A DNA stretch of 64,000 nt, taken from Pagrus major. Lineage: Eukaryota > Chordata > Actinopteri > Spariformes > Sparidae. The position numbers and the translations under genes were made by a program. Below are positions 44,586-49,039 of this stretch, piece by piece. The notes under the pieces are model-generated. The model was not told the origin of the DNA. It ran no database searches and worked only from the letters and a program-made list of their open reading frames with translations. The first letter of the stretch is position 1; each line of letters starts with the position of its first letter. The stretch is from NCBI RefSeq assembly GCF_040436345.1, contig NC_133224.1, positions 15,136,703 through 15,200,702 of the forward strand. Reading direction: 5' to 3'.

Positions 44586-44824
44586 AATAAGACGTAACAG
44601 GCCGTACTTTGTATCAAATTAGACAAAACCAATAGCCAATAAGACGTAACAAGCCGCACTTTGTATCAAATTAGACAAAAACAATACTCTAATAAGACGT
44701 AACAAGCCGTACTTTGTATCAAATTAGACAAAAACAATATGCTAATAAGACGTAACAAGCCGTACTTTGTATCAAATTAGACAAAAACAATACGCTAATA
44801 AGACATAACAAGACATACTTTGTC
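44586..44824 (-). repeat. 53-bp tandem repeat, about 4.5 copies
   Basis: Units start AATAAGACGTAACAAGCC at 44586, 44638, 44691, 44744 and 44797 (period 52-53). The last partial unit ends in the stop codon of the FEN-like pseudogene. Units differ by only a few bases, so the array is young. Confidence 0.95.
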
Positions 44825-47800
44825 ATCCCATTTCATCCACTGGAGGAAGATCAGGATGTGGCAGGTGAGCTTGGTTCCAGATTGCCGCTTGATAGTGTGA
44901 ACACATGATATGAAACTTCACTGCATATGAGGTTGGTGGCAGAGTCTCTTGTGGGCGACCTTGGCAAAACAACTTCACTCTTGCTTTGTTGCATGTGTCA
45001 ACCTCGGGCACACCGTACATCTTACAGATGAATTTCTCTGTTGAATTCAAAACATCTTTCGTAAGAGGGCCCTTCCCAAGGCCCGTAAGATCAGTGTGAT
45101 GTTGCTCAAATACCTGCCAGGCTGTTTACTTTCCGTGACCGCTGAACTGAGACACACTATCACAGCCAGTAACGGCATGGAAGGCAAGGAGTGTGTCCAC
45201 TTGAACATCAGATAGTAACTTGCAAATGTCATGTACTGGAAACTACTTTGGATCCTTTGATGTCCCGGCTTTCATGTAGAGATGAGTACATCTGATTCTG
45301 TCATGGTGTGCTAGAAGTAGAAGAAGCACATCTGTGTCACGTGCTGACACAACTATTGTGTCCATAGGAGCCTGGATGCAGTGCAAAATCAGTCGTGTAT
45401 CAGCCTCCTCGTGGTCAGCACTCAGAGAGGAGACTTCAAAATCTGGATCTGATGACTTGACAGTGGTCGCTTCAGCAAACCCACCTGATACTACAACCAC
45501 AGGCTCATCCTTTGGGCTGTGTTCTATCAGATGGTTTGAGAGTAGTCGAGCGAGATCTGCTTTGTTCTCTTCCAGTGCCATGAAGCTCGACCAGTCTGCT
45601 GGAAATGGAACAGAGTCATTTAGGATTTCTCTGCATACTGTCCGGTGGTGCTGTTTACGTTTCCTTCTTGTGCCTGTTTTGATGGACTCATCATGGTACC
45701 TGTCGAAGACTACATCAACCCTCTGGTACTTCTCTCCCATCTTCAACACGGTGTTAGCAAACTTGTTGGCATAGTCGCTGAATGTCGTAATGTCTGGCGG
45801 CTTCCCAATTGCCATTACAAATGCTTGGCCATCAATAAGCAAGCAGCTGGGACATGTTTTGTCAATATATTTGCTAAAACAGATTTGTTGGTGGAATGTA
45901 GACTGCCGTCAGTTGCGGCCAGAGATGGTGGGATGGGCATGAGTTCATGCTGGAGAATATTTTCCAGGTCTACTTTGCGACCTGCTCTGTAAGCTGTGAT
46001 GAGCCTTTGTAGAATCTGCCTGTCCACTTTGATGGTGTTTTGCTTGTTTTTGGAAAGTTGCACAACTTCATACAAAGAGGCAAATGTCTTGGCTTTGTTC
46101 TTCGTAGGTGACTTCAGATCCAAGTGCTGGTCACTATCTGGAGGTTCACACAGACGTTTGTCCACAAACACTTTCATTTGTGCCTGTCCAAAGCGTTCTG
46201 CACCAAGCAGAGATTCTTGAATCTCCAATGTGACCACATCCTTGTTGATTATGTTCCTGATTGTGTCACCGCCATATTTAAACACACTGTGCTCTTTCAG
46301 TGATAGACATATTCTGCTTTCATCCATGTTGTCTCTTTCCATTCTACTCTTTGTGCACTCTGTGTGTGTGTACTCATCGTCTTCACTGTCTGTTGTCAGT
46401 TTCAGCATTTCTGTTGTCTGAGAAGCTATGACTGTTCTCAGATTATACGACAGTGTCCATCTACTGAGGGATGTTGCTATCCTGGTGATACCTACTAGGC
46501 CTCCACTCTTTTTTCCTGTAGTGTTTAGCCACTCTGTACTTTGATCTGCTGAAACCTGATTGAAGCGTCGATCACTGCGTTTCACCACGAAGTTGCCTTT
46601 CTGAAAATCAAGGAGGATTTCTGGTGGGAGAACAGACATCTCAGCCAGGTACACAGTACCCCATCTGGCATAGTTTATATGATCGTACCTGAAGAAGAAG
46701 GGCAGCATATGTTTGAGAGCATACAGGTGGAGATCCCACAATCCATCACGTTGCACTCTTGTGAAGCAGAGTAGGCTGCTGACCATAGTCATATAGTCCC
46801 ACCAGAATGCAGCATTCGGGTCATCAACTGCAAGTGATGCAGCAAACTCTTTCATAGGCTGCTGGAATCGGTCTGTAGTCAGTTTGTCAACCATCTGTGC
46901 AATGTGATCAGCATCTACAGACTGGCAGAGATCCAAGAGTTCAGCTCTCAGTGTAACATCAACCTTATCCAGATATGTGTAAAGCTGTGGGAGTAGTAGT
47001 TGCCAAAGAGCCTGCAGGGTAAGCTTATGGGTCCTCATGGCACGTGCATACCCCTTTCCTGCCATGACATGCTGAGCAGCATTTGCCCCCAGAAGATCAC
47101 ACTTGACCCATGGCTCGCTCAGGCCAGAATCAACCATGTGTTGTCCTATCACACCCAGGAAGTTCATGGCAATGTGAAGGCCTCCAAGGCAAGGTATAAG
47201 CACGTCCTTGTATTCTTCTACTGACCACTTCAGTTCTAGCAACTTCGGATAAAGTGCTTCATCCACTGTCAGAATGACATGCTGTTGTTCCATTGATTTG
47301 GAGACATGGAGCACTCGCTTGACGACTCGCTTGACGTTCAGTGTATCAAGTTCAGATGCAGGAGCCTGGATGATAGGTAGGTACCCTACTGTAGTTTTCT
47401 CCGGGTTGACTGTGCTTGCCTTTTGATTGTACAATGTCCAGGAAGGTATTGGTTTTTGAGATGTCCTGGACATGAAAAAGGCCATGTCTGTAGCTTGTGC
47501 TTTCTGTGCTGCAGGACATTGTTCATACGACTGTGTGAAGCAATCTGGTGCTACTACACTGAATGGACACTCTGTGATTCCTCTCTTTGGTGCAGGTATG
47601 ATGTCAGTCATTGCCTTGGGGATGTTGAGGGTTTCTGACTTGGAGTAAAGATCAATTCCTTCAAGGAGATCACCTTCAGGTGGACCACGTTGCACCGTCA
47701 TCTCCCATGGTCTCCAAGGTCTTCTTAGCCAGTGCAGTGTCAAGTTTGATTACCTCACGGTAACTCATAACATGACCTGCCTGGTGAAACATGTTCACCA

Positions 47801-49039
47801 ACTCCTTGGAACGTGTAGCTTGATGAAGGGAACTGGCCAGTCCTATGTGCTTTGGAGTGAGGAACTTGTCTCCACTGGCTGTGTACATAAGATCCTGTGC
47901 AATGCTGAGGACTCTAAGCTGGCGTTTGGCTGTGTTCTTATCATCATCTTCAACATCATCCTCCAGCAGGCGTTAACCACCTAGTAACAAGTTGAGGAAC
48001 ATGTACAGGCTGTTGGGTATGCTGTCTATTGCTCTGTTTTCACTGATGTCTATCCCCTCTTGTTTTGGATGGGAAAGCATATCATTTCGGATCTGCAATG
48101 CCACATGGACCATGTTCAGGAACATATCTTGATCCTCATGTTTGAATGTAGGAATGACTCTATGAATATTGGAGGTGTCATCTTTCACCATTGTTGATAC
48201 TGGAATATGCCGGTATTTGGATGGAACCAAAACAGTACGAGTTCATTTCGAGGCTGATCACGCAACACAACAAAGTCATATACGCCCTCAAGACGACCAG
48301 CTATTTGTTCCTTGAAGGTGTTCCTTCGGCTTAGAAATCTAGATGGTATATCTAATTGAACCTCATTAGCTAGTGTAGAGTACCGGTCCCACACATGTAC
48401 AAGATCTAGAATATCCGCTTGCTTTGCTGATTGTTCAAGTTCTTGGCAGATCCACTCTAATGGCATGTCTGTGCTCGGAAGTGACTCCATGCGTTTGGTC
48501 CTACGTTCAAACCTGTTCTTGCAAGTCACGTGATATCTTCCTTCTGCAGCTATAAGATCATTTACACAAGCTAGTCGCACTCTTAAGAATGAGTCATACT
48601 TTGCTGCTTGTAGGATTCTGCTGCTGACTTGTTGGCAAAAGATACACTGCTTCCATTCTATTGGAGCTATTTTGCTCCGTAGACTAACATTTTGCCGAGT
48701 TGATGTGGATGCAGACGAACTTTGTTTGGTATCTCTTTGCAATTCTGCCTTCAATTTCCTTTCAATTTCACGTTTATTCATGTATTTTGCTCGGCAGTCC
48801 CTATGCCACAAGATTTGCTGAGGCAAGTCTCCTTGAAGCATCTCAGTAATTCGATTAGTTACATCTCGGAAATTGTCATTATGTAATTTCAACCGGAGTT
48901 GTCTTATAGTGTCAGCTGACTGGAGGCCATCCTTACTCACTGTCATGAGATTTTGCTTATTGTCTTCCTGGCATATGATGCACAACTGTGGCTTTGATGA
49001 GATTAAGCTCTCTTGAGTATAGTCTATTGCTTCAGCCAT
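44823..49039 (-). pseudogene. large FEN/XPG-like (PIN-fold) nuclease-domain gene, decayed copy
   Basis: About 1,400 codons in one intronless stretch. ATG at 49039 (MAEAIDYTQESL); stop TGA at 44825-44823. The N-terminus has two similar modules, each with a CxxC and a distant HxxC-type pair: CIICQ..HRDC (residues about 20-95) and CIFCQQ..HVTC (about 140-185). A middle part of about 600 residues is unfamiliar. The C-terminal region reads LLIDGQAFVMAIGKP, VDVVFDRYHDESIK..RRKRK, ADHEEADTRLILH, VSARDTDVLLLL and HAVTGCDSVSQFSGHGK. That is the order of acidic motifs of FEN1/XPG-type nucleases (VFDG, EAD, S.DTDv, GCD.. with a helix-hairpin-helix). Breaks: a frameshift near 48230, TAA at 47975-47973, a frameshift or deletion near 47700, a frameshift near 45855, TAG at 45245-45243 and TAA at 45128-45126. 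Otherwise the frame is well preserved, so inactivation is recent. I know similar predicted proteins as multi-copy families in fish and cnidarians but cannot name the family. Confidence 0.75.

Follow-up and report, generated by a model that had tools for sequence, protein, structure and literature searches.

A broken intronless reading frame lies within a transposon copy

The window analysed here, a 64,000-nt stretch of Pagrus major contig NC_133224.1 (positions 15,136,703 to 15,200,702), carries on its minus strand, between 44823 and 49063, one long intronless coding stretch that is broken into pieces and has an ATG at 49039. The initial annotation had described a large intronless gene in this place and quoted five motifs from it; we found the frame in pieces and all five motifs on the minus strand where they had been located. 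A 221-aa piece of the nuclease region has at least 24 matches in the same genome (786 Mb, 25 contigs searched), thus the coding stretch is not due to chance. The window copy is identified with high confidence as an inactive, 3′-truncated DNA transposon of the Academ superfamily, belonging to the nuclease-bearing lineage, AcademX.

All pieces of the frame are on the minus strand. The N-terminal frame (48185–49063), which includes the ATG, encodes two CxxC...HxxC putative zinc-binding modules; paired modules likewise occur in the relatives L048/L122 and, with a less strict pattern, in L049. It is followed by a continuation frame ended by a premature in-frame stop (47973–48242; compare the frame of L047, the closest copy) and by a second one (47676–47972) that leads to a gap at 47693/47694. 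The next frame (45815–47749) holds a putative transposase core with TVDEALY (putative second Asp), an NYARW block, and SADQSTEW (putative Glu). The first part of a FEN/XPG-like nuclease domain, with LIDG, VFD, EEAD, and DTD, occupies 45243–45908. A piece with TGCDSVSQFSGHGK (45129–45242) lies between two premature stops; it was read from the sequence and is aligned in the closest copy. The C-terminal frame (44823–45125) is broken off before a Cys-rich tail.

Scored against the closest copy, on contig C1 (L047, C1:1263000-1271200), the coding part contains six frame-breaking lesions, the number that had been counted initially. Three are gaps, of 1 bp at 48241/48242, 122 bp at 47693/47694, and 31 bp at 45851/45852, and three are in-frame stops at about 47973, 45243, and 45126. 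One more gap, of 39 bp, keeps the frame, and the remaining gaps between the two copies either fall within the leader or represent sequence that the C1 copy lacks. Because the 122-bp gap deletes the first putative catalytic Asp (in the DNVD motif of the C1 copy), the window copy is dead on this ground too.

A gapped full-length alignment to the C1 copy places the element at 44824–49872 on the minus strand. Homology spans 49872 to 44824 at 97.3% identity over 4,693 aligned columns, gaps left out, and begins with TAGACAGGGTCAG at 49872 (terminus TAGACAGGG...). The same start recurs on C1, C14, C19, and C23 next to differing flanks and with at most two differences per 20 bases (C1 TAGACAGGGTTAG, C19 TAGACGGGG, C23 TTGACAGGG). 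Since copies with unrelated flanks share it, 49872 is the 5′ terminus of the element (TAGACAGGGTCAGTTTTCAC, 49853–49872, flank ...TAT). The frames stand where the initial annotation had put them; the element itself runs on to 49872, and the 44823 side is a truncation and no natural C-terminus. It abuts a 53-bp tandem repeat of 4.5 copies (44585–44823, no strand assigned). The 3′ coding part matches two places in the genome, the window itself and C1:1265013-1266204 at 93%. Beyond the breakpoint of the window copy, the C1 copy adds 64 residues that end in the Cys-rich tail, and it also repeats part of the 5′ end in inverted orientation. The 3′ terminus of the element (in reverse TAGTCTAGGCAG) is present in three other copies and was found neither in the window nor in the C1 stretch examined.

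The 328 bases that precede the element on its 5′ side belong to a dispersed repeat. Of 12 loci of this repeat, 3 can be aligned up to 2 bases or less from the 5′ edge of the element, consistent with its insertion into such a repeat or at the end of one. In the window, this repeat occupies 49873–50200, just outside the 5′ end, and has many genome matches at about 68–88%. Within the 5′ leader, a 300-bp stretch (49100–49399) is absent from the C1 copy and reflects either a nested insertion or a loss in C1; it contains a perfect 15-bp inverted repeat (49163–49195).

Related copies define termini and target duplications

Two shorter elements of the window family retain both ends, and both are flanked by 3-bp target site duplications (TSDs): AGA at C14:7341473-7344028 (2,556 bp) and CTG at C23:15257787-15259776 (1,990 bp). 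The boundaries of these two were fixed while viewing the flanks; a second family, L048, yields the same TAG...CTA ends by comparison of its copies. The ends of the window family are long imperfect inverted sequences whose outermost ~40 bases differ.

The L048 family is more distant, with ~30% identity to the window protein over the nuclease domain, and is present in the same genome. Its nuclease-domain piece has at least 73 matches there; for both families these counts are lower bounds that include the query's own locus and count fragments of one copy apart, so that the window piece itself is among its 24 matches and the C1 copy is counted as two. DNA identity among L048-family copies is 98.6–99.8% per aligned stretch (L009, which is the same place as L048, was excluded from this range). 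The frame of 1,508 aa is unbroken in two copies, including the one at C18:25279135-25285373 (L122/L048), and in two others it is interrupted by a single stop within the nuclease region. Three full-length copies measure 6,239, 6,256, and 6,275 bp. The ends of the family are 5′-TAGCTGAGCAGAC and, in reverse, 5′-TAGTGGAGCAGAC, with subterminal sequences that resemble each other; the terminal inverted repeats (TIRs), TAGCTGAGCAGACAA and TAGTGGAGCAGACAA, begin with TAG and continue into this longer subterminal similarity.

TSDs flank all six L048-family copies for which both flanks could be compared (4 bp in one copy, TTCT, and 3 bp in the other five, TAT, ATT, AGG, CCA, and CCT), and none of 30 mismatched flank pairs matched in a control. 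Three of these copies are full length and three (C12, C4:15512211, and C13) are internally deleted; C14:910474 was left out, its 3′ end not being found in the stretch examined. A further relative, L049 (C22:6152000-6158500), has an open frame of 1,570 aa (1,586 by protein search of the genome) and ends with ...CTA. Several lineages of one kind of transposon are present in this genome, one of them with near-identical copies, unbroken frames, and clear TSDs.

These data bear out the initial view that the gene is intronless, mobile, and amplified, and that the copy in the window is dead: relatives are spread across the genome, the terminus is shared, and the C1 copy is 97.3% identical over the aligned columns. 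Two of the follow-ups that had been proposed with it, a count of copies and an alignment of their flanks, revealed a multi-copy family with unbroken frames in relatives, and termini with TSDs in both window-family and all six L048-family elements. The alternative of a domesticated family, also raised initially, fared differently. If a transposon had given rise to a family of host genes, with the window copy as its pseudogene, the long open frames kept in some relatives would be accounted for. However, near-identical copies are dispersed with full termini and TSDs, the window copy itself has a transposon terminus, and internally deleted, non-autonomous derivatives exist; we consider domestication highly improbable. 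If a spliced nuclease gene of the host had been retrocopied, the product would be intronless like the frame observed here, yet the seven XPG_I matches of the genome are located elsewhere, and the L048-family copies end in ...CTCCACTA with no poly-A and possess TIRs and 3–4-bp TSDs. This origin we regard as barely credible, and a DNA transposon remains the explanation that we adopt.

The L049 stretch also holds a frame that by eye resembles a retroelement integrase.

The protein combines a putative transposase with a FEN/XPG-like domain

The protein is arranged as two CxxC/HxxC modules, a region with an acidic triad, a domain with FEN/XPG motifs, and a Cys-rich tail. The initial annotation had set apart a large unknown middle part. 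This part most likely is a DDE-type transposase domain: three acidic positions, D in DNxD/N, D in TxDxxxY/C, and E in DQ/KxxE, are conserved in the copies that cover them and probably represent its DDE triad. A search with the transposase profile returned no meaningful match.

The motifs of the following domain, IDG, VFD, EEAD, DTD, and GCD...GxGKK, stand in the order found in FEN/XPG nucleases. The metal-binding residues of FEN1 served as the reference for comparison. Six residues are invariant across the 8 rows of alignment A1: Asp in IDG, Asp in VFD, Glu plus Asp in EEAD, and the two Asp residues in DTD. In alignment A3, 9 of 14 rows have the Asp of GxD, among them L049 (GED), and in the other five the open frame does not extend to it. 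Across A1 and A3, seven FEN-type acidic positions thus occur in order and are largely conserved among diverse relatives, in keeping with the FEN/XPG-type motif order reported initially. The spacing of the four Asp motifs is similar to that in an archaeal FEN1, if unequal (45, 87, 204, and 264 in L048; 26, 78, 172, and 234 in FEN1). When A3 was aligned with 19 archaeal FEN1 sequences by hhalign, the pairwise E-value was 0.0068 and the register was right, with GCD...GKGKKTAW on GTD...GIGPKKAL; three of the 19 reads (L093, L103, and L112) contained a stop, the sign for which was removed before alignment.

The domain therefore resembles FEN1, EXO1, and XPG in the order and rough spacing of I-D-G/A, VFD, E-x-D/E, D-x-D, and G-x-D followed by G-x-G-x-K. 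It differs from them in its position within a transposase and in being too diverged for a significant sequence match. With moderate confidence, we take it to be a FEN/XPG-like nuclease, which would adopt a PIN/FEN fold; beyond motif order, the sequence similarity to this group is weak.

A probable place in the AcademX lineage of Academ

Published descriptions, which we cite from excerpts, place Academ among the superfamilies with DDD/E transposases (PMC9587614) and list it for zebrafish, medaka, and stickleback (PMC4746887). Within the superfamily, TSDs of 9 or 10 bp are given for AcademH and of 3 or 4 bp for AcademX, and these lengths are tied to the encoded helicase and nuclease, respectively (PMC10045372); another excerpt mentions a helicase in Academ (PMC3627910). 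The elements described here resemble AcademX in combining a transposase and a nuclease, both predicted, in one element, in their 3–4-bp TSDs, and in belonging to a superfamily that occurs in teleosts (PMC10045372, PMC4746887). They differ from AcademH, to which the excerpt assigns a helicase and 9–10-bp TSDs (PMC10045372), by a probable nuclease and the shorter duplications. Curated Academ elements of bivalves average 5,565 bp in the excerpt of PMC10294476, and full-length L048-family copies measure 6,239–6,275 bp. The present copies also possess TIRs, a feature not encountered in the Academ descriptions cited.

No Pfam helicase match was found among the scanned pieces of the window and its relatives. 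In Repbase, the nuclease of AcademX is called XPG-like. Literature searches for XPG together with Academ or with transposons gave no relevant paper among those listed.

Several results weigh against this assignment. The window copy keeps one end only and hence has no TSD pair of its own, and its empty site was sought and not found, with none of the 12 dispersed-repeat loci matching 41501–44823. In the L049 family, the TSD is ambiguous, the 3′ end falling in a CTA repeat. The conservation of acidic positions in diverse relatives has an exception in L020, which was not included in A1 and has no Asp at the VFD motif. In profile searches against solved structures, the best matches of A1 were four EXO1 sequences at E-values of only 0.38–0.53, and A3 ranked two apolipoprotein A-I sequences (0.11 and 0.19) above EXO1 (0.24). 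By hhalign, A1 reached only E = 0.16 against the 19 archaeal FEN1 sequences, as compared to 0.49 for the transposase profile A2 used as a control; with six short XPG_I exon pieces of the host as the target, the nuclease profile reached E = 0.1, aligned out of register, and the transposase-profile control 0.53. Seven pieces of the window and six of relatives, scanned with Pfam, yielded nothing significant and no XPG_N or XPG_I match. The sub-threshold hits were GM_CSF (0.034), Phasin_2 (0.13), and RNA_pol_Rpb2_2 (0.24) for the window pieces, and DUF6589 (0.089, L015) and DUF677 (0.15, L048) for the relatives. Sequence searches of the PDB with single pieces returned nothing meaningful, and no relative turned up in two scans of viral contigs. 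Finally, the name Academ was assigned by matching features with published descriptions and not by sequence comparison.

The elements might instead form a superfamily apart from Academ, in which a DDE transposase and a FEN-like nuclease were joined independently. The link to Academ by description and the lack of significant Pfam matches would allow this, whereas the 3–4-bp TSDs, the single very long protein, the pairing of transposase and nuclease, and the occurrence in teleosts all agree with AcademX/Academ as published. We therefore judge a separate superfamily to be unlikely and retain the assignment to AcademX. The suggestion of an undescribed class of selfish element in the initial annotation is not supported, as the 3–4-bp TSDs and the predicted transposase-plus-nuclease protein, in elements with defined termini and TIRs, match AcademX in the excerpt of its description (PMC10045372). 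Very probably, the window copy is a decayed but otherwise unremarkable member of a transposon lineage already known and represents no new element class; a candidate class is thereby removed and given a name.

The YARW-type block of the transposase is reminiscent of the Kyakuja-Dileera-Zisupton (KDZ) group, which we therefore considered as a candidate. TSDs of 8 bp are given for Zisupton and of 7 bp for two Kyakuja families in the excerpt of PMC12730594. Given the 3–4-bp TSDs found here, we discarded KDZ, from which the elements also differ by their probable nuclease domain.

A possible mechanism of transposition

Termini and target duplications support well that the element moves as DNA, leaving duplications of 3 or 4 bp. 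The chemistry of transposition and the part played by the nuclease can be proposed from the predicted domains. An intact relative encodes one intronless protein of ~1,500 aa, the putative N-terminal zinc-binding modules of which probably bind the ends of the element. An RNase-H-type DDE transposase domain would cut and join the DNA in cut-and-paste transposition, and the FEN/XPG-like domain, as a metal-dependent nuclease, would probably trim or open DNA ends at excision or insertion.

It is conceivable, and we propose it only tentatively, that the domain is an active flap nuclease needed for transposition, e.g. in end processing or in setting the short TSD, and that the near-identical intact copies are still mobile. 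If this is true, the mechanism of this type of transposon is directly testable. The near-identical copies with unbroken frames would be a convenient source for probing the function of the built-in nuclease.

Other features in the window

Elsewhere on the minus strand, a 736-aa open frame at 33224–35434 is rich in Glu and dibasic sites and has no Pfam match at an E-value of 0.001; we presume a resemblance to neuropeptide precursors of the granin/VGF type. Two further stretches belong to other mobile elements: a Tc1/mariner-type transposase at 63291–63983 (minus strand; HTH_Tnp_Tc3_2, DDE_3) and apparent remains of a Ty3/Gypsy-type retrotransposon at 15053–17746 (minus strand), with a gag match at 17153–17746 and other frames recognized by eye. 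An exon-like open frame at 1585–2298 (minus strand) matches SNAPC2 with an E-value of 8.7e-10, and a tRNA gene is located at 8037–8118 (minus strand; Rfam RF00005, 57.3 bits).

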